A program made the translations under genes and the position numbers. From an uncultured Flavobacteriaceae bacterium (GTDB lineage Bacteria; Bacteroidota; Bacteroidia; Flavobacteriales; Flavobacteriaceae): a stretch of DNA of 47,332 bases. Shown one piece after another: positions 24,176-33,706 of the stretch. The DNA lies in assembly GCA_905479095.1 (NCBI GenBank), contig CAJQLD010000008.1:1-47332 (forward strand). The letters run 5' to 3'. Position 1 is the first letter of the stretch; each line of letters starts with the position of its first letter. The notes under the pieces are model-generated. The model searched no databases. It was not told the origin of the DNA and was given only the letters and a program-made list of their open reading frames with translations.

Positions 24176-25264
24176 TCAGAATTGTATTACGTCTCCGATA
24201 CTGTCCGCTGAATTACTCCCAAGAATATAGGTGCAATTTCTGGGTTGAATTTTATAAATAGACTGTTTGGGTTTAGAAACCTGCATCTGATCAATAATCG
24301 ACTTAAATGACATCGTTGATGCATCAAAAATAAATTCAGAACTTGCGCTTACTTCATCTACTGAAGCGATCAGCGTTGGATTCAATTTTTTAACTAATTG
24401 AGCTTCTGGGTTTGATGAAATTAATACAGATTTATACTTAATTTCAGGCTGTTGCTGTTTCAATGGCTTTAATAGAACTAATAGTTTGATTGCTACAGAA
24501 ACCAACAAATCAGAAAAGAAATTGGATTTAAAATGTTTTTGATGAAAAATCTGCATGGCGCCATAAAACCGTTTAAGATACATTTCATTTCTTCGTGTAC
24601 TTTCGCCTTTATAATGAATAACGGTGGTGCCTCCAAAATAATAATTATCATAGCCCTCTTTAAGCGATTTATAAGAAAAATCGATATCTTCTCCATACAT
24701 AAAGTAATCTTCGTCGAAGCCCTTTAAGGACTCATATAACGATCGTTTGAGTAACATAAATGCACCCACTAAAACCTCAACTTTTGCAGTCTCATGTTCC
24801 TTAACATGAGTCGCATAATACGGTTGAGAATTTCCAAGTATTTTTTTAATCGCAATTTTAACTACAGGAATATTTCGTTTACTCTCAGGAAGAAATTTCC
24901 CAGAACCATCAACCAATCGACAGCCAATAATTCCTAAGTTTGTTTGTGTATCTGCAAAGTTGAGAATTGTTTTAAAAGTGTCTTCCGCGACCACTGTATC
25001 TGGGTTTAGAATACAGACATACGCACCCTTGGCAACTTTAACTGCTTGATTATTGGCTATTGAAAATCCTACGTTTAATGTGTTCTGAATTAAAAGTACT
25101 GATGGGAATTGTTCCTTTACCATCTTGCAACTGTCATCCTTTGAATTATTGTCTATCACAATAATTTCTGAAGGAATATCGACTAAAGCTGCTTCTACAC
25201 TTTGCAAGCAAAGTTCCAGAAAGTAGCGCACATTATAATTTAGAATGACAACTGATAGCTTCAA
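24176..25264 (-). CDS. Family 2 glycosyltransferase
   Basis: A 362-residue GT-A fold enzyme. It opens with the canonical KLSVVILNYNVRYFLELCLQ, then IIVIDNNSKDDS. ILNPDTVVAEDT carries the metal-binding Asp region, and DEDYFMYGEDIDFSYK matches the family's 'eDiDl' motif of rhamnosyltransferase-like enzymes. The C-terminal ~60 residues are an unassigned extension. The start codon is TTG at 25262-25264: the family's usual 'MKLSVVILNYN' begins exactly there, and it lies 6 bases after the recR stop. It probably builds a cell-surface polysaccharide; donor and acceptor are unknown. Confidence 0.9.
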   Translation of the reverse strand: MKLSVVILNYNVRYFLELCLQSVEAALVDIPSEIIVIDNNSKDDSCKMVKEQFPSVLLIQNTLNVGFSIANNQAVKVAKGAYVCILNPDTVVAEDTFKTILNFADTQTNLGIIGCRLVDGSGKFLPESKRNIPVVKIAIKKILGNSQPYYATHVKEHETAKVEVLVGAFMLLKRSLYESLKGFDEDYFMYGEDIDFSYKSLKEGYDNYYFGGTTVIHYKGESTRRNEMYLKRFYGAMQIFHQKHFKSNFFSDLLVSVAIKLLVLLKPLKQQQPEIKYKSVLISSNPEAQLVKKLNPTLIASVDEVSASSEFIFDASTMSFKSIIDQMQVSKPKQSIYKIQPRNCTYILGSNSADSIGDVIQF

Positions 25265-25270
25265 GACAAT

Positions 25271-25888
25271 TTAGGATTTAAGAGAGAGTTCAAATGGAAT
25301 TCTATTGGTGATGCTTCGTCCAAGCGTAACTTCGTCGGCATATTCTAACTCGTCTCCGGCAGAAATTCCACGCGCAATGGTTGAGATTTTTACATCGGTA
25401 TCTTGAATTTGTTTAAAAATATAAAAATTGGTCGTATCGCCTTCCATCGTAGAACTTAACGCAAAAATAAGTTCTTTCGTATTTCCTAACCGAATTTTTT
25501 CAATTAAGCTGTTAATTTTTAAATCGTGAGGTCCGACGCCGTCCATCGGAGATATTTTACCCCCTAGCACATGATAAACACCTCTGTAAGATGCGGTACT
25601 TTCAATAGCCATCACATCTCTAATATCTTCTACCACACACACCACGTCTTGTTGACGGTTGGTATTGATGCAAATTTCACACAATTCTGAATCACTAATA
25701 TTGTGGCAGTTTTTACAAAAGTTAATATTCTGACGCATCTTTTGCAAGGCATCCGCCAAATGAAGTGTTTGCGACTCAGGCTGACGCATCAAATGCAACA
25801 CGAGGCGTAAAGCAGTCCGACGTCCGATACCAGGCAATTGCGCAACTTCGTCCACAGCACTTTGTAATAATTTTGATGAAAATTCCAT
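25271..25888 (-). CDS. recR: Recombination protein RecR
   Basis: A 205-residue RecR, part of RecFOR-mediated loading of RecA at gaps. The helix-hairpin-helix segment is [17 protein letters not shown] (~18-34). The zinc finger has four cysteines at 58, 61, 70 and 73 (CKNC..LCEIC), and the Toprim domain begins [15 protein letters not shown]. The C-terminus has [19 protein letters not shown]. It begins at ATG 25886-25888, which lies inside the left arm of a 40-base palindrome. Confidence 0.96.
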
Positions 25889-25926
25889 GACACAAATTTA
25901 GATAAATTTATGCGAACTTGTGTCAT
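25887..25926. repeat. Palindrome overlapping the recR start codon
   Basis: ATGACACAA and TTGTGTCAT form a 9-base perfect stem around a 22-base loop. On the minus strand it lies downstream of the first T9SS gene and covers the recR ATG. A related sequence lies downstream of the second T9SS gene (29099-29128). It could act as a terminator-like or translation-modulating hairpin. Confidence 0.6.
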
Positions 25927-25960
25927 CAATTTAAAGACTCCTGAAACTTCGAAATAGAGG

Positions 25961-28900
25961 TTAGTTTATAATTAATTTTTTAGTGACTTCCTTATTTAAT
26001 GAATTGACTTTTAAGAAATAAACCCCTTTTGGAGCCTGTAATTCTATTAGAGGGTTTTGGGATAAATTTCTATTTTTTTCATAAAAAACTAATTTCCCTA
26101 GCGGATCATAAATTTTTAGGGTCACTTGAGTGTTTAATTTCCAATTCAGTTTAAAAATTCCTGTGGTCGGGTTTGGTGATAAAATCAACTCCGAAACTTC
26201 TAAGTCATCCACGCCTAAGCTAGCTGGGTTGTACAAATTAACACGCCACAATCCACGTCCGAATGTTGCCACATACAATTTTTTATCTGCCGTGTTTATC
26301 TCCAGTTCATTAATTTGAATATTTGGCAGTCCCGTATTATAAGACGTCCACGATGTTCCATCTTCTCTAAGGTAATAAATCCCATAATTCATTCCTAGGT
26401 ACAATATATCTTCGTCGTAGGTCGTATCCCACACCAAGGCTAAGGCACTAAAATTCGGTAAGTCATAAACTACACTAGTCCAAGTAGCGCCACCATCACT
26501 TGAAATATATACTTTGGCTGACGAAGTTGTTGCAATGGCTATTTTATTTGGATTTGTAGGATGAATGGCAATTGAAGTAATATAACCCGAAAATCCTATT
26601 AGTCGTGACCAATTTCCGACTGCTCCACCGTTCGTTGTTTTATAAATACTTGATCTAAATGCCGCATACATGGTATTGCTATCCGAGGGTGCTATTTTTA
26701 GTTGAGTGGCATTATTACCAAAATCTTGTGAAATTGAGTTCCAAGTAGTCCCACGATCTGTTGATTTATATATTTGACTATACCCAGAATACAGCGTCGC
26801 AGCTTCGCTAGGATCTTGCTCAAAGGGAGTTACAAAATTGCCATCAGTAGAACCATCTCTGTTAAAATCTCCAAAATTAATGTCAATCCTGGTAGCTCCC
26901 TGATTAAATGATTTATATAACCTTCCTCTTTGAGATGAACCATATAAAATATTGGAATTTGAATGGTCTACAAAAGATTCCGTGCCATCGGCCCCTAACC
27001 AATCATACCAAACGCCATCTGCTCTATAAACCGAGGTTCCATTGTCTTGAGAACCTCCAGAAACAATGACCGGATCTGTTTGACTAATTCCAATTTTATA
27101 AAATTGACGTATCCCCAAACCAGCGGATAAATCGGTATAGTAAGTTCTACTGACATTCAGTGGGTCATTGGCTACAAAAATACCGCCATCACTACCCACA
27201 TATATTTTGTCATTATGATATATCATTATATCAATATCAGCATGGCAGTACCCTATGTCTTGACTTGCTGCAGTCTGTGGAATCCATTGTGAGGTCACCG
27301 TAAAATCCACCCCGCCATTGGTTGATCTCCAAGAAAGGATGCCCGCAATATGAACGTCATTCACATCAGATGGGTTAACGATGATATCCATATCTCTAGG
27401 CGCTTGGCCATTGACATCATCCGCACTTGAGCTATAGCCGAAATAATTTTTATTGGCATGCTCTAATTTTGAAAATTGATCGCCTCCATCAATGGACTTG
27501 TAAAGGCCACCGAATTGTCTATTTTTCTCTTCTAAGATATAAACAACTTCAGGGTTGTCTGCAGAAACGCCTATCATTTTTGCACCATAATTAAAACCGT
27601 TGAATTCTGGAAGAGACTCAAAATCATCTGAAAAAACAACCCCTAGTGTAGGATCTTCAACTGAAATATCATCCAATGTCAATCCTCTTGCATAGTTTGA
27701 CGTCCCTTCAAACGCTATATAATAATCTCCAGACGGATCTGGTAAATTAATTGAAATCTCTGCCCAATTATTAACTTCTACTGCAGTAGTTCCAAGTAGA
27801 AACCATGGTTCATTCAATCCTGTTTTATAAAAAACCTTGAGCTCTTCAGTATTCCCTGCAAAACTAACATTTGTAAAAGAAAATTTTAAAATAGGGGCCG
27901 TGCTGCCTATAATATTGAGTGGTGGTGATATTAATTTGGTCTTTGGACGGGTAAAATCCGGCTGATAAAAAAGCGCTAACCTTGATCCGCTTCTAGCAGT
28001 CACAGAATTATTTTGGTTAGATCCAGCTAATATCCAGTCTGTAGACCCAGATTCATAGTCTTGAGACCACAAATCTAAAGCATCACCTCCTTGAATCTTT
28101 ACAAAAGTTTCACCACCATCCTCCGATTTGAAAAATTTATTTCCAGAAGCATAAATCGTATTTGTGTCTCCAGGTTTAAACTCTACATCGTAAGCGGTTT
28201 TAGACTCTGAATGAATTTTTACCCAGTTTAAGCCGCCATCTGTAGATTGAAAAACACCTTCACCTCTTGAAGAACAAAATAGTTGGTTAGTATTTGTTGG
28301 ATTAATTAAAATTTTGTTGACAGTTCCATTTCCTGTGTCCGCAAATTCATTCCAAGTAGACCCAGCATCTATAGATTTAAAAATCACCCCAAAAGAACTT
28401 CCCCAATAATATGTATTTGAATCCAGTGGATCTATGGTCAATGCATAGACTACTATATTAGAAAGGTTATCGGTTAATGGCGACCAAGTTGCTCCGCCGT
28501 CAAGGGATTTCCAAACGCCGCCCGTTGGAGATCCAACAATGATATGATTTACATCACTAGGATCTATTGCGATACTGGTAATTCGCCCAACTCCCGGATT
28601 CCAACCAGAAGTTTGATTCCAGTCTGTAGGTCCCAATTGTTCCCAACTAGAAACGGTGGTCGCTCGACCTAATTGAATCGATTTATTTTTGAATGAATTG
28701 TACCGCTCTAACTCGTTGTAGTAAAACGAAGGCGACTTTAAAAACCCACTGTTATCTTGCATACGAAGGGCATTATACTCCCAACGTTTAAAACTTTTAT
28801 AGCCAGTCCCTCTTCCTTTATCTTTGTTTTTAAAATAGGCTTGTGCAGCATTTTGAATGTCTTGAACAGTGTATTGCTCTAAATTGATCATCTCTTGATA

Positions 28901-28966
28901 CTCTTGAGATTCGAGATTTAAAAACACCAATAAGCAGGAGAATAATAGTAAGGTAGGTTTATTCAT
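25961..28966 (-). CDS. T9SS-secreted Asp-box beta-propeller protein, paralogue 1
   Basis: A 1001-residue secreted protein with signal peptide MNKPTLLLFSCLLVFLNLES. Roughly ten Asp-box/BNR-type motifs (for example KSLDGGATWSPL, KSTDRGTTWNSI, ISSDGGATWTSV) indicate sortilin/VPS10-like propeller blades. A ~160-residue domain (about 295-450) interrupts the blades. It has SQDYESGSTDWILAGSN, a central KFSFTNV..ELKVFYKTG part and the ending YARGLTLDDISVED, like a MAM/cleaved-adhesin jelly roll. The last ~75 residues (LILSPNPTTGIFKLNWKLN to KKLIIN) are a type A T9SS sorting tail. No catalytic motif is seen. Probable cell-surface or released binding protein; the homologue next door is closely related. 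Confidence 0.88.
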   Translation of the reverse strand: MNKPTLLLFSCLLVFLNLESQEYQEMINLEQYTVQDIQNAAQAYFKNKDKGRGTGYKSFKRWEYNALRMQDNSGFLKSPSFYYNELERYNSFKNKSIQLGRATTVSSWEQLGPTDWNQTSGWNPGVGRITSIAIDPSDVNHIIVGSPTGGVWKSLDGGATWSPLTDNLSNIVVYALTIDPLDSNTYYWGSSFGVIFKSIDAGSTWNEFADTGNGTVNKILINPTNTNQLFCSSRGEGVFQSTDGGLNWVKIHSESKTAYDVEFKPGDTNTIYASGNKFFKSEDGGETFVKIQGGDALDLWSQDYESGSTDWILAGSNQNNSVTARSGSRLALFYQPDFTRPKTKLISPPLNIIGSTAPILKFSFTNVSFAGNTEELKVFYKTGLNEPWFLLGTTAVEVNNWAEISINLPDPSGDYYIAFEGTSNYARGLTLDDISVEDPTLGVVFSDDFESLPEFNGFNYGAKMIGVSADNPEVVYILEEKNRQFGGLYKSIDGGDQFSKLEHANKNYFGYSSSADDVNGQAPRDMDIIVNPSDVNDVHIAGILSWRSTNGGVDFTVTSQWIPQTAASQDIGYCHADIDIMIYHNDKIYVGSDGGIFVANDPLNVSRTYYTDLSAGLGIRQFYKIGISQTDPVIVSGGSQDNGTSVYRADGVWYDWLGADGTESFVDHSNSNILYGSSQRGRLYKSFNQGATRIDINFGDFNRDGSTDGNFVTPFEQDPSEAATLYSGYSQIYKSTDRGTTWNSISQDFGNNATQLKIAPSDSNTMYAAFRSSIYKTTNGGAVGNWSRLIGFSGYITSIAIHPTNPNKIAIATTSSAKVYISSDGGATWTSVVYDLPNFSALALVWDTTYDEDILYLGMNYGIYYLREDGTSWTSYNTGLPNIQINELEINTADKKLYVATFGRGLWRVNLYNPASLGVDDLEVSELILSPNPTTGIFKLNWKLNTQVTLKIYDPLGKLVFYEKNRNLSQNPLIELQAPKGVYFLKVNSLNKEVTKKLIIN

Positions 28967-29098
28967 AATGTAAATTACTAGGGGCTAGCAATATAATTAA
29001 AAATAAATAAACCTCATGGACTTCATTTTAACTTTAACACTTCTTATTAACTAATTTTGCTACAACGTACTGGGGCATTAGACTTTTTAAAAAAAAAA

Positions 29099-29128
29099 AT
29101 GACATAAATTCAGATAAACTTATGTCAT
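29099..29128 (-). terminator. Terminator hairpin of the second T9SS gene
   Basis: ATGACATAA and TTATGTCAT form a 9-base stem. On the minus strand the hairpin is followed by a run of about ten T, after the stop of the gene ending at 29163. The sequence resembles the palindrome at recR. Confidence 0.75.
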
Positions 29129-29162
29129 AATTTTAAAAACCTATAAACCCTTAAAATTGGAA

Positions 29163-32100
29163 TTAGTTTATAATTAATTTTTTAGTAATCCCCTGACTTA
29201 ATGAATTGACTTTTAAGAAGTAAATTCCTTTTGGAGCCTGTAATTCTATTTCAGGATTTTGAGATAAATCTCTGTTTTTTTCATAAAAAACCAACTTTCC
29301 AAGCGTATCATATATTTTGATAGTCACTTGAGTGTTTAATTTCCAATTCAGTTTAAAGATCCCTGTGGTCGGGTTTGGTGATAAAACCAACTCCGAAACT
29401 TCTAAGTCATCCACGCCTAAGCCTGCAGGATTGTACAAATTAACACGCCACAATCCACGTCCGTATGTTGCCACATACAATTTATTATCTGCCGTATTGA
29501 TTTCTAGCTCATTAACTTTAACATTAGGCAGTCCAGTATCATAAGGCGTCCACGATGTTTCATTATTTCTGAGGTAATAAATCCCATAATTCATTCCTAG
29601 GTACAATATATCTTCGTCATAAGTCGTATCCCATACCAAGGCCAAGGCACTAAAATTCGGCAAGTCATGTTTTGCAACACTCCAAGTTGCGCCACCATCA
29701 ATTGAAACATAGATTTTATCTGATGAAGCGGTCGCAATGGCTAGTTTACTAGGATTGGTAGGATGAAGGGCAATGGAATTGATATCTCCAGAAAACCCTG
29801 TCAGTTGCACCCAATCGCCGTCTGAGCCACCATTGGTCGTTTTGTAAAGATTACTCCTAAACGCAGCATACATGGTATCGCTATCCGAGGGTGCTATTTT
29901 TAGATGATTCGCTTTGGCACCAAAATCTTGTGAGATAGAGTTCCAAGAATCACCACCATCAAGGGATTTGTATATTTCACGATATCCAGAGTATAATGTC
30001 GCAGCAACATTAGGGTCTTGCTCAAAAGGGGTCACCCAACTACCATCAGGGCCATCAATATCGTCAAAATATCCATGGTTGATCCAATTACTACTAGCTC
30101 CTTGATCGTATGATTTGTATAACGTCCCTCCTTGAGAGGTCCCATATAAGATATCAGGATTTGAATGGTCAACAAAAGTTTCCATCCCATCAGCTCCTAA
30201 CCAATCATACCAAATACCGTCTGCTCTATAAACCGAAGTTCCATTGTCTTGTGAGCCTCCGGAAACAATCACAGGGTCTGTTTGGCTGATTCCAATTTTA
30301 TAAAATTGACGAATTCCCAAACCAGCTGTTAAATCGGTATAGTAAGTACTACTGACATTCAGCGGGTCATTAGCCACAAAAATACCACCATCACTCCCCA
30401 CATATATTTTGTCATTATGATAGATCATAAGATCAATGTCGGCATGACAGTACCCTATGTTTTGATTTGCTGCAGAGCCTGGTTGCCATTGTGAGGTCAC
30501 CGTAAAATCCGTACCGCCATTGGTTGATCTCCAAGAAAGGATGCCCGCAATGTGAACGTCATCTACATCAGATGGGTTAACGATGACATCCATATCTCTT
30601 GGCGCCTGCCCTCTGTTGTCACTTGCATCTGATTCATAGCCAAAATAATTTTTTCCGGCATGGTCTAATTTAGAAAAACTAGAACCACTATCGGTTGATT
30701 TATAAAACCCTCCAAATCTGCCACTATTAGCTTCAAGTACATACACAACCTCAGGATTGTTTGCAGAAACGCCTATCATTTTTGGGCTATTACTAAAGCT
30801 TTCGGGAATAGGAGAAATTAAAGCATCAAAATCATCTGAAAACACAATCCCTAATGTAGGATCCTCTACAGAAACATCATCTAGAGTAATCCCTCTAGCA
30901 TAGTTTGATGTTCCTTCAAACGCTATATAATAGTCTCCAGATGGATTTGGTAAATCAAGTGAAACCTCTTGCCATGCTGTAACCTCACCGGATATAGTCG
31001 CAAGTGAAGTCCATGTTGCTTCGGGTCCTGTTTTATAAAAAATATTGAGCTCATCTACGTCGCCATCCCAATTGACACTTGTAAAATAAAATTTTAAAAC
31101 TGGGTCCGAGCTGCCAGAAATATTAAGAGCTGGTGATATTAACTTGGTAATTGGATAGGAAGCATAATTCTTAGCAAAACGAGCTAACTTTAATCCACTT
31201 CTAGGAGTCACAGAATTATTCAGGTTAGATTCAGCTATGGTCCAATCCGTAGTCCCAGACACATATCCTTGACTCCAAAATTGTGGCGTTACTGGGAAAT
31301 AAGGGATTACAGTATACTGTTGAGTTTTTGTAAAACTCTGACCGCCATTTGTTGATTTAAAAAATGAATCCCCCGAAGCGTAAATCGTACTGGTATCATC
31401 TGGCTTAAACTCTATATCGTACCCTCTATAAGAATCTGTGTGGATTTTCTCCCAACTCTGACCACCATCTATAGATTGAAAAACTCCAGAAAATTGGGTT
31501 GAACAAAATAGCTGATCTATATTATTTGGGTTGATTAAAATTTTATTAACATTTCCATCCCCTGTATCAGCTAATTCGTTCCAAGTTGCCCCAGAGTTTA
31601 TAGATTGAAAAATAACACCATTACTACTTCCCCAATAATATACATTTGGCTTACTAGGGTGTATTGTCAATGCATACACCTCAATATTGGAGAGATTATC
31701 TGTTAATGCAGTCCAGGTTGCAGTACCATTAGTAGTTTTCCAAACACCGCCCCCTGGAGATCCAATAATGATATGATCTTCATCGTTGGGATCAATGGCT
31801 ATACTGGTAATTCGTCCAACACCTGGATTCCAACCCGAAGTTTGATTCCAATAGGATGGCCCTAATTGTTCCCAGTTAGGGATCGTATTCATTCGTCCTA
31901 ATTGTGTAGACTTGTTTTGATAGGAATTGTACCGTTCTAACTCCTTATAATAAAACGAAGGTGACTTTAAAAGTCCATTGTCATCTTGCATGCGAATCGC
32001 ATCATACTCCCAGCGTTTAAAACTTTTGTAGCCAGTTCCTCTACCAGTATCTCTGTTTTCAAAATAGGCTTGTGCAGCATTTTGAACTTCTAAAACTGTG

Positions 32101-32195
32101 TATTGGTTTGAGTTCATCATCTCAAGATAGTCTTGAGCTTCGATAGATAAAAACGACAATAGGAAAACCCCTAAAATAAAGGTTGATTTATTCAT
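29163..32195 (-). CDS. T9SS-secreted Asp-box beta-propeller protein, paralogue 2
   Basis: A 1010-residue protein from the ATG at 32193-32195 (MNKSTFILGVFLLSFLSIEA, a signal peptide); 13 more codons upstream lack support. It aligns with paralogue 1 along its whole length: WEQLGPSYWNQTSGWNPGVG near the N-terminus, the same Asp boxes, the same jelly-roll-like insert, and the sorting tail beginning LVLSPNPTTGIFKLNWKLN. Differences are clustered in surface-type segments, including a short insert before the jelly-roll (around TVIPYFPVTPQFW). The two genes are tandem, same strand, 196 bases apart, so they arose by duplication. Ligand unknown. Confidence 0.88.
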   Translation of the reverse strand: MNKSTFILGVFLLSFLSIEAQDYLEMMNSNQYTVLEVQNAAQAYFENRDTGRGTGYKSFKRWEYDAIRMQDDNGLLKSPSFYYKELERYNSYQNKSTQLGRMNTIPNWEQLGPSYWNQTSGWNPGVGRITSIAIDPNDEDHIIIGSPGGGVWKTTNGTATWTALTDNLSNIEVYALTIHPSKPNVYYWGSSNGVIFQSINSGATWNELADTGDGNVNKILINPNNIDQLFCSTQFSGVFQSIDGGQSWEKIHTDSYRGYDIEFKPDDTSTIYASGDSFFKSTNGGQSFTKTQQYTVIPYFPVTPQFWSQGYVSGTTDWTIAESNLNNSVTPRSGLKLARFAKNYASYPITKLISPALNISGSSDPVLKFYFTSVNWDGDVDELNIFYKTGPEATWTSLATISGEVTAWQEVSLDLPNPSGDYYIAFEGTSNYARGITLDDVSVEDPTLGIVFSDDFDALISPIPESFSNSPKMIGVSANNPEVVYVLEANSGRFGGFYKSTDSGSSFSKLDHAGKNYFGYESDASDNRGQAPRDMDVIVNPSDVDDVHIAGILSWRSTNGGTDFTVTSQWQPGSAANQNIGYCHADIDLMIYHNDKIYVGSDGGIFVANDPLNVSSTYYTDLTAGLGIRQFYKIGISQTDPVIVSGGSQDNGTSVYRADGIWYDWLGADGMETFVDHSNPDILYGTSQGGTLYKSYDQGASSNWINHGYFDDIDGPDGSWVTPFEQDPNVAATLYSGYREIYKSLDGGDSWNSISQDFGAKANHLKIAPSDSDTMYAAFRSNLYKTTNGGSDGDWVQLTGFSGDINSIALHPTNPSKLAIATASSDKIYVSIDGGATWSVAKHDLPNFSALALVWDTTYDEDILYLGMNYGIYYLRNNETSWTPYDTGLPNVKVNELEINTADNKLYVATYGRGLWRVNLYNPAGLGVDDLEVSELVLSPNPTTGIFKLNWKLNTQVTIKIYDTLGKLVFYEKNRDLSQNPEIELQAPKGIYFLKVNSLSQGITKKLIIN

Positions 32196-32208
32196 AATAA
32201 AGTTATAA

Positions 32209-32234
32209 TTGGTTAATATTGTAAAGGTAACCAA
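32209..32234. promoter_or_regulatory. Inverted repeat in the divergent promoter region
   Basis: TTGGTTA and TAACCAA, separated by 12 bases, lie in the 53-base gap between the start of T9SS paralogue 2 and the divergent symporter gene. The centre-to-centre distance of ~19 bases suits a dimeric regulator. No regulator is known; low certainty. Confidence 0.35.
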
Positions 32235-32248
32235 TACTATTTTAGCAC

Positions 32249-33706
32249 ATGAGTTCTTTTTTAATTATTACACTCCTTTTAGGGTATTTTCTAGTATTAA
32301 TTCTCATTTCATATTTGACAGGGAAAAACGACTCCAATGTGGACTTTTTTAAAGCCGGTAAACAATCGCCCTGGTACCTGGTGGCTTTTGGAATGATTGG
32401 CGCATCGTTGTCGGGGGTTACTTTTATATCGGTTCCTGGCTGGGTGGATGCCTCTCAGTTTAGTTATTTTCAAGTGGTATTGGGTTATATGGTGGGCTAT
32501 GTGGTGGTCGCTTTTGTGCTGCTTCCTGTGTATTATAAATTAAATTTAACCTCCATATACGAGTATCTTTTTCAACGGTTTGGGTTTGTAAGCCACAAAA
32601 CTGGGGCTTTTTTCTTTTTTGTGTCTCGGGTTTTAGGCGCTGCCTTCCGATTGTATTTAGTCGCCATTGTATTGCAACAATTTGTATTTAATAAGTGGAA
32701 TGTCCCTTTCGAAATTACGGTCATGATTTCTATTTTACTAATTTGGATTTACACCTTTAGAGGCGGCATTAAAACCATTGTTTGGACGGATACGCTTCAA
32801 ACCTTATTTATGATCACGGCAGTGGTATTGTCCATCTATTTTATCACCGATAGTTTGGGCTGGAGTTTTACAGAATTTCTGGCTTCTGATGAATTAAAAT
32901 CCTACAGCACTATTTTTAATACTGATAATATTCTAGAAAAAAACTACTTTCTGAAATCCTTTTTTGGCGGTCTGTTTATCACCATTTGTATGACCGGATT
33001 GGATCAGGACATGATGCAAAAAAACCTAACGTGCAAATCACTAAAAGACGCTCAGAAAAATATGCTATCCTTTAGCATTGTACTTACTTTTGTGACCTTT
33101 TTATTTATGCTTCTTGGGGCGCTATTATTTATTTATGCCAAGAAAAATAATATCGCAATTCCACTTCTAGACGGCAAACCTAAAACAGATTTATTGTTTC
33201 CAGAAATTGCTTTGAACAGTGGTTTAGGAATTACACTAGGTATTACTTTTATTTTGGGATTGATTGCCGCTGCTTACAGTAGTGCCGATAGTGCCTTGAC
33301 GTCCTTGACGACCTCTTTTTGTGTGGATATTTTGGATCTGAAAGATAAATCTGAACACGAGCAAAAATCAATTCGTAAAAAAACACATATTGGAATGAGT
33401 GTGCTTTTGGTGGTGGTCATCATCGCTTTTAAATACATTCTAAACTCCAACGTTATTGACAGCTTATTAACCGTCGCGGGTTACACCTACGGGCCTCTTT
33501 TGGGACTCTTTTCTTTTGGAATCTTTACAAATTATAAGATAAAAGATCGGTATGTTTGGATGGTTGCACTCGCTTCAGTGACGATCGTGTTTTTAATTGG
33601 AAAAATCCCTTCAGAATCTTTAGGCGGCTATGTCATCGGCTACGAACTCCTCCCCCTTAATGGGCTCTTAACTTTTTTAGGATTAATACTGATTCGTCGA
33701 AAGTAA
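32249..33706 (+). CDS. Sodium:solute symporter (SSS family)
   Basis: A 485-residue inner-membrane carrier with about 12-13 hydrophobic segments. Family features are the unwound first core helix ([18 protein letters not shown]), [18 protein letters not shown] (the 'GG..aV..TD..Q' motif), [16 protein letters not shown] and [17 protein letters not shown] (Ser/Thr sodium-site region). It resembles the proline/pantothenate-type carriers, but the substrate cannot be fixed. The last 24 bases overlap the convergent CoA-binding gene. Confidence 0.93.

Follow-up and report, generated by a model that had tools for sequence, protein, structure and literature searches.

Surface proteins exported by the type IX secretion system (T9SS) are a main contact of Flavobacteriia with algal matter, and propeller cargo of the kind discussed here is mostly labelled "VPS10" or "glycosyl hydrolase." This study concerns two such proteins, A and B, encoded in tandem in an uncultured marine Flavobacteriaceae bacterium (GenBank assembly GCA_905479095.1, contig CAJQLD010000008.1, positions 1 to 47,332; this whole stretch of 47,332 nucleotides is hereafter the window). 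Their closest described relatives are the GH74 xyloglucanases (2cn2, 1sqj, 6p2l, and 5fkt), which, like A and B as modelled, are tandem seven-bladed propellers with Asp-box motifs. Unlike these enzymes, A and B have no Asp at the position aligned with their residue P147 (nor does any of 55 homologues), have a different block of conserved polar residues, carry a T9SS signal, and accommodate a MAM-like insert within the propeller.

Several other systems share parts of this architecture. The Sortilin/VPS10p domain (PF15902, cutoff 33) gives above-cutoff profile matches to several Asp-box stretches of the two proteins (91.9 and 84.3 bits), which nevertheless lack the 10CC region, match tandem propellers better, and are bacterial proteins exported by the T9SS. 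MAM, Cleaved_Adhesin, and choice-of-anchor J modules, to which the insert is related, occur in other T9SS cargo (e.g., L065 and L067) as modules in a row, whereas the insert of A and B sits inside the propeller. PorZ (5m11) is likewise a Bacteroidota surface protein with propellers, but it is a component of the T9SS machine, was a lower match (Foldseek rank 24) than GH74, and is not known to have a MAM insert. Finally, the Flavobacterium columnare protein C6N29_07780 is given in the relevant listing of PMC9936825 as a Sortilin-Vps10 plus PA domain protein and a possible subtilisin-like protease; compared by profile and by that description, it is like A and B in being a propeller that matches this profile, is secreted by the T9SS, and bears an additional module, which is a PA domain where A and B have MAM. 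A search of one open library for T9SS Asp-box propellers, Bacteroidetes VPS10 proteins, and GH74 with type IX secretion returned no literature; the propeller and MAM are each already known, and what appears to be new, at least to us, is that the gene occupies a fixed slot, that it keeps a conserved site, and that a module within a propeller is exchanged.

We propose that A and B are T9SS-exported, GH74-like surface binding proteins, possibly enzymes, with an exchangeable accessory domain, and we put the probability of this reading as a whole at roughly 0.55. The features on which it draws are as follows.

25961..28966, minus strand: protein A, 1001 residues; a helical N-terminal region follows the signal peptide, and the GH74-like tandem propeller, which holds the insert, precedes the T9SS type A signal
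29163..32195, minus strand: protein B, 1010 residues; architecture as in A; orthologue of the single-copy gene of relatives
27599..28099, minus strand: MAM-like insert of A, about residues 290-456 (boundaries from alignment; PF00629, 22.0 bits)
30801..31328, minus strand: MAM-like insert of B, about residues 290-465, between the blade-final strand 289-291 and the first strand of the next blade, 472-476
30168..30446, minus strand: invariant polar block of B, H584-x-D586, D602-G-G, Q649-D-N-G652, D669-G-x-E672, and D676 (from conservation in 55 sequences)
26966..27244, minus strand: A copy of the invariant polar block (B numbering minus 9), with T in place of M671
31755..31757, minus strand: codon of P147 in B, aligned by sequence with the Asp of xyloglucanase 2cn2 (Ala in 2cn3)
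25964..26179, minus strand: T9SS type A C-terminal signal of A (TIGR04183, 51.4 bits; PF18962, 47.2 bits)
29166..29381, minus strand: T9SS type A C-terminal signal of B (TIGR04183, 49.7 bits; PF18962, 50.3 bits)

The propeller scaffold and its conserved polar block

A and B are intact minus-strand open reading frames (ORFs) encoding 73% identical proteins (the start of B was set at the ATG at 32195, and an upstream TTG was not used), with 8 Asp-box motifs by pattern in A and 8 to 9 in B. Both carry the T9SS type A sorting domain (TIGR04183, cutoff 23) and an N-terminal signal peptide, recognized by eye, that is followed by Q21, placing Gln at +1. With sorting domain and Sec signal peptide both present, the two sequences read as T9SS type A cargo, and they would presumably be located at, and anchored to, the cell surface. 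A preliminary description of this DNA, made from its letters alone, had thus recognized the pair of tandem T9SS Asp-box propeller proteins correctly, although its term "giant" overstates proteins of this length.

GH74 enzymes were the closest relatives in the PDB by sequence profile (6p2l, E value 4e-31; 2cn2, 2e-27), and they occupied all of ranks 1 to 23 when the predicted structure of B was searched with Foldseek. VIA-align superposed about 590 residues of this model on GH74 structures at Z 27. G-beta-like single seven-bladed propellers reached an equal Z but aligned to only about 280 residues, so that GH74 is singled out by aligned length and not by Z alone. On a model of moderate quality (predicted local distance difference test score [pLDDT], 71; predicted template modeling score [pTM], 0.58), the scaffold of A and B is a GH74-like pair of tandem seven-bladed propellers.

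The position that is Asp in 2cn2 and Ala in 2cn3, a change that we take to be loss of the GH74 catalytic Asp, aligns to P147 of both proteins; GH74 structure titles among the Foldseek matches listed include D60A and D465N mutants. Across the 55 homologues this column holds N in 24, P in 14, E in 8, Q in 5, and A, R, V, and S in one each, with D in none. Judged by this alignment, A and B are not standard GH74 enzymes, the catalytic Asp aligned to P147 being replaced.

A second set of residues is all but fixed. The motifs H584-x-D586, D602-G-G, Q649-D-N-G652, and D669-G-x-E672, together with D676, are at least 98% conserved in the 55 ingroup sequences, and Q649, D650, N651, D669, and E672 are identical in every one of them. 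Most of the block is also found in the outgroups L069 and L064; L018, L020, and a paralogue on contig C96 of the window's own genome keep part of it. Among 158 strongly conserved positions, A departs at three and B at none, and both proteins therefore look functional. By the strands of the B model, the residues of the block fall at blade-to-blade or b-c turns, and in a propeller these two kinds of loop share the upper face. A profile search aligned no solved structure to the block. This polar block of the C-terminal half is the strongest candidate for a site of binding or catalysis, and the earlier statement that no catalytic motifs are present accordingly fits the GH74 Asp that is gone at P147 but not the block itself, which resembles a functional site.

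The MAM-like insert: distribution, loss, and exchange

Where most homologues have 3 residues between two blades, A has 167 and B has 176, in keeping with the segment of about 160 residues, MAM/cleaved-adhesin-like, that had been noted there between Asp-box blades. Against the MAM family PF00629 (gathering threshold 26.4), the B insert scores 26.6 bits, marginally over, and the A insert falls under; the inserts of L009 and L013 gave no MAM match at an E value of 0.01. A Foldseek search with a weak model of the insert alone placed MAM chains at the top (E value 1e-4, Z 7.5), and its best structural matches were MAM, Eph ligand-binding domains, and carbohydrate-binding modules (CBMs), among which arabinanase and galacturonidase entries appeared at Z 7.2 over about 95 to 116 residues. 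No enzyme fold stood out among the structural matches of this weak model, and the enzyme with an intact active site that was named as the case against a binding role was not found in the insert. Outside propellers, the insert is closest, at 46% identity, to the MAM part of a Cleaved_Adhesin-fn3-MAM-T9SS protein in genome G040. In distant relatives, propellers of this kind come with F5/8C, PKD, and LamG modules, and the pairing of this propeller type with binding modules, as far as domain matches tell, recurs among relatives.

The gap at the insert site is bimodal in the 57 sequences compared, at either 162 to 179 or 3 to 8 residues, except for 11 residues in the slot-2 copy of genome G010. Of the 57 rows, 19 have the insert and 38, among them two outgroups and the scarred copy, do not. 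When the insert columns are excluded from the tree, presence of the insert requires 8 changes, 5 of which are forced by starred branches. This 57-row tree omits the near-identical L007 and L050_6210; the 15-row tree used for the genus omits the frameshifted L014, the remnant L016, and the fragments of G007, and the 15-row structure alignment omits L007 (near-identical), L016 (remnant), and L017 (masked stretch).

Some of the absences carry a trace. The G010 slot-2 copy and the G007 copy keep a tail resembling the end of an insert (NNFISGAN and NNVVSGAN, respectively, before F..GPKM), and the insert was therefore most likely deleted in both, leaving the 11-residue scar in G010 and one of the same kind in G007. 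Elsewhere, the insert may have been lost repeatedly, down to a clean 3-residue site, or alleles lacking it may have been exchanged in.

Two types of insert occur within the genus. Type II, found in L009, L010, L011_8001, and L012, is 92 to 94% identical among its four carriers and 35 to 45% identical to the other inserts of the genus. In all six pairs among these four species, the proportion of synonymous differences (pS) is 0.07 to 0.15 in the insert versus 0.41 to 0.58 outside it (Fisher P values from 3e-8 to 8e-17). L010 and L013 are 92% identical in the blades before the insert and 43% identical in the insert. Near-identical inserts in divergent genes point to recombinational exchange of the insert, and the sequences thus imply that it has passed between species.

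Other combinations of propeller and module were seen along the way. In the G014 orthologue (L012:8001-11450), an extra module of about 145 residues separates the propeller from the T9SS tail; its CBM_4_9 match is sub-threshold (15.9 bits against a cutoff of 25.9). Genome G195 has two tandem orthologues that lack the insert (L115:6970-11793 and L115:12020-16105) and whose propellers are followed by MAM stretches, one in one protein and three in the other. The distant propeller paralogue on contig C96 (L063:3282-6836) carries PKD and two F5/8 type C domains and no MAM insert.

Proposed mechanism and alternatives

The mechanism that we propose begins with a gene resident between recR and a symporter gene across Flavobacteriaceae. 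A and B would be exported and held at the surface through the T9SS, and the invariant polar block would be presented in a cleft as a conserved ligand-binding or active site. Some members of the family have a MAM-like beta-sandwich spliced into an inter-blade loop of the N-terminal half; this loop is predicted to lie on the upper face of the propeller, as the loops of the polar block do, so that the insert would most likely provide a further binding surface next to the conserved site. Its predicted ligand would be an algal polysaccharide, glycoprotein, or matrix, and the insert would behave as a cassette swapped between species via homologous recombination in the flanking blades. The adhesin or glycan- or protein-binding role suggested in the preliminary description is plausible with respect to binding, with the qualification that an enzyme is possible as well. 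A fixed chromosomal address, a conserved site, and an exchangeable module would together amount to a compact natural experiment, the same scaffold being found both with no insert and with inserts of more than one kind; should the insert determine the ligand, domain-level exchange between species would be a way of retargeting a surface protein.

Several points weigh against this interpretation. The model of B is moderate, and the one made for the insert by itself is weak (pLDDT 58, with the first 47 residues under 50); the best Z of the insert is 7.7, and all of its matches lie below Z 8, under the level regarded as trustworthy. A profile of the 545-760 region gave no alignment at the second GH74 catalytic Asp, and Glu at the first Asp position in 8 of the 55 homologues leaves catalysis possible. 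Tracts of low pS occur in other parts of the gene in some pairs, indicating recombination beyond the insert as well. Finally, the approximately unbiased (AU) test rejects neither the four type II carriers as a clade (P = 0.30) nor a clade of A and B (P = 0.097).

A considerably less probable explanation, which nonetheless deserves attention, is that A and B are active surface hydrolases, glycosidases or other, acting through HxD/DGG/QDNG/GADGxE, with the insert as an internal CBM that brings substrate to the cleft. The five residues identical in all 55 homologues, and also in two outgroups, would suit an active site on a GH74-like scaffold, but the block has no counterpart in solved structures by profile, and P147 stands in A and B where the GH74 catalytic Asp would be, even if Glu is found there in the eight homologues mentioned. 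Similarly, the sub-threshold CBM_4_9-like module in L012 and the F5/8C or LamG modules of distant relatives are what one might expect of a hydrolase, while the F510_1955 glycosylhydrolase model NF045728 reached only 118.6 and 102.1 bits, far under its curated cutoff of 175, and the recR and symporter neighbors, as named from their sequences, are unlike a polysaccharide utilization locus.

It is unlikely that the insert is a neutral domain with no specific role, gained and lost repeatedly, and that ordinary homologous recombination at this conserved locus explains its low pS. The 38 rows without it, most in the same slot, do mark it as dispensable, and the other low-pS tracts would fit, but the empty sites are exactly 3 residues long and do not look like decay, and near-identical inserts are found in four species. 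The ratio of nonsynonymous to synonymous divergence (dN/dS) between the A and B inserts, 0.54, is the highest of all segments and compatible with relaxed constraint, yet still less than 1, and nine sequences share 38 invariant columns in the insert and at its edges. Being below 1, this ratio also gives no ground for claiming positive selection on the insert.

That A and B are sortilin/VPS10p-like receptors of peptides or proteins, as the Pfam name implies, is very improbable: the PF15902 scores and sortilin chains matched at an E value of about 1e-6 in the PDB sequence search speak for it, but the match to GH74 is much stronger, both in sequence and in fold, no 10CC cysteine-rich match follows the propeller (A has three cysteines in 1001 residues), and about 590 residues of the B model follow tandem propellers, sortilin being a ten-bladed ring. 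No sortilin chain is among the best 50 Foldseek/VIA-align matches listed; being missing from that listing is not in itself proof.

More speculatively, and with considerable doubt, the reading that we favor could be taken further. Throughout the family, the recR-slot propeller might serve as a surface enzyme or receptor whose site (HxD, DGG, QDNG, and GADGxE) is as yet undescribed, the inter-blade insert might be a specificity cassette traded by marine flavobacteria via homologous recombination, and the tandem or flanking copies might be holders of alternative alleles. If this were true, species could retarget one conserved surface protein, whether toward an algal host or polysaccharide or in avoidance of phages or grazers, with its core untouched.

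Chromosomal slot and origin of the pair

A match at an E value of 1e-80 was found in 55 of 299 Flavobacteriaceae genomes. Synteny was assessed in 40 regions from 39 of the 55, and four more of them (the window's own genome, G010, G022, and G029) were examined separately. recR and the symporter gene each lie within 250 bp of the gene, in the same arrangement, in 31 of the 40 regions; in L104 an extra ORF precedes recR, and eight regions, among them L112 near a contig end, are without both neighbors in the fetched stretch. In the window's genus, the gene stands between a same-strand recR and a divergent symporter gene. Given the arrangement shared by the 31 regions, the recR-symporter slot is, on gene order, the ancestral home, and the gene an orthologue group and not a local oddity. 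Comparing this site in related genomes had been suggested at the outset, and the placement of the pair between the two neighbors stands, as the remaining features show.

29096..29162, minus strand: copy behind B of the 3' flank of A that precedes recR (25894-25960)
25271..25888, minus strand: recR, downstream of A on the same strand (name from reading of the sequence)
32249..33706, plus strand: SSS-type symporter gene, divergent from B (name from reading of the sequence)

The window has two copies at the slot and the sister genome G009 has one. A second copy lies across the symporter gene in G010 (without the insert) and G003 (with the insert), and G007 has a fragmentary insert-less second copy. 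In G006, what stands beside 98% identical neighbors is a remnant of 172 codons (L062:7940-8559), which contains a stop and has lost a large internal stretch.

The pair had been described as a recent duplication with diversification. The repeated DNA unit takes in about 67 bp of 3' flank, but the synonymous divergence (dS) between A and B, by segment, is 0.86, 1.18, 0.54, 0.62, 0.65, and 0.39, compared with 0 to 0.06 between B and the G009 copy (L007; 99% identical), in a genome that lacks A. This contrast makes the split of A and B older than that of the window's species and the G009 species and rules out recent tandem duplication. The tree places A outside B and the other slot-1 copies (support for the fork without A, 83/99 with nine rows and 98 with seven), and the signal peptide of A (MNKPT...) and the bases near its promoter resemble those of slot-2 copies. 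A pure transfer of a slot-2 copy was also considered; the AU test neither supports nor rejects A with slot 2 (P = 0.14). On balance we lean toward A as an older or foreign second allele beside B and not a fresh copy. The lower dS of the tail suggests partial conversion between the two.

A and B differ at 272 of 1001 aligned sites, and the differences are clustered: the variance over 30-residue windows is 18.0, compared with 5.8 after shuffling, and none of 5000 shuffles was as high, which excludes uniform divergence. Clustering persists without the insert (13.8 versus 5.3; again none of 5000). As had been observed, the two proteins are alike along their length and differ in clusters that include the insert, where 41% of 164 sites differ versus 24% of 837 outside (Fisher P = 3e-5), and residues 580-669 show only 0 to 2 differences per 30. 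Diversification specific to the paralogues does not account for this, as A and B differ at 51% of the 472 sites that vary in eight genus homologues and at 6% of the 529 invariant ones, and differences thus fall mostly on sites that are variable family-wide. Read from these substitutions, the divergence pattern is one of constraint plus a fast insert.

Residues 22-105 of both proteins (28652-28903 in A and 31881-32132 in B) form an N-terminal helical region with a conserved GxGxK..KRWE before the propeller; no family model matched it, and a search of the own genome for this region as a module elsewhere returned A and B only. Rfam gave nothing at its gathering threshold in window positions 25000-33000. 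The start of recR lies 72 bp behind A on the same strand, a distance that is about 12 to 235 bp in the 31 relatives with the strict slot, which suggests that the secreted-protein gene and recR share transcription.

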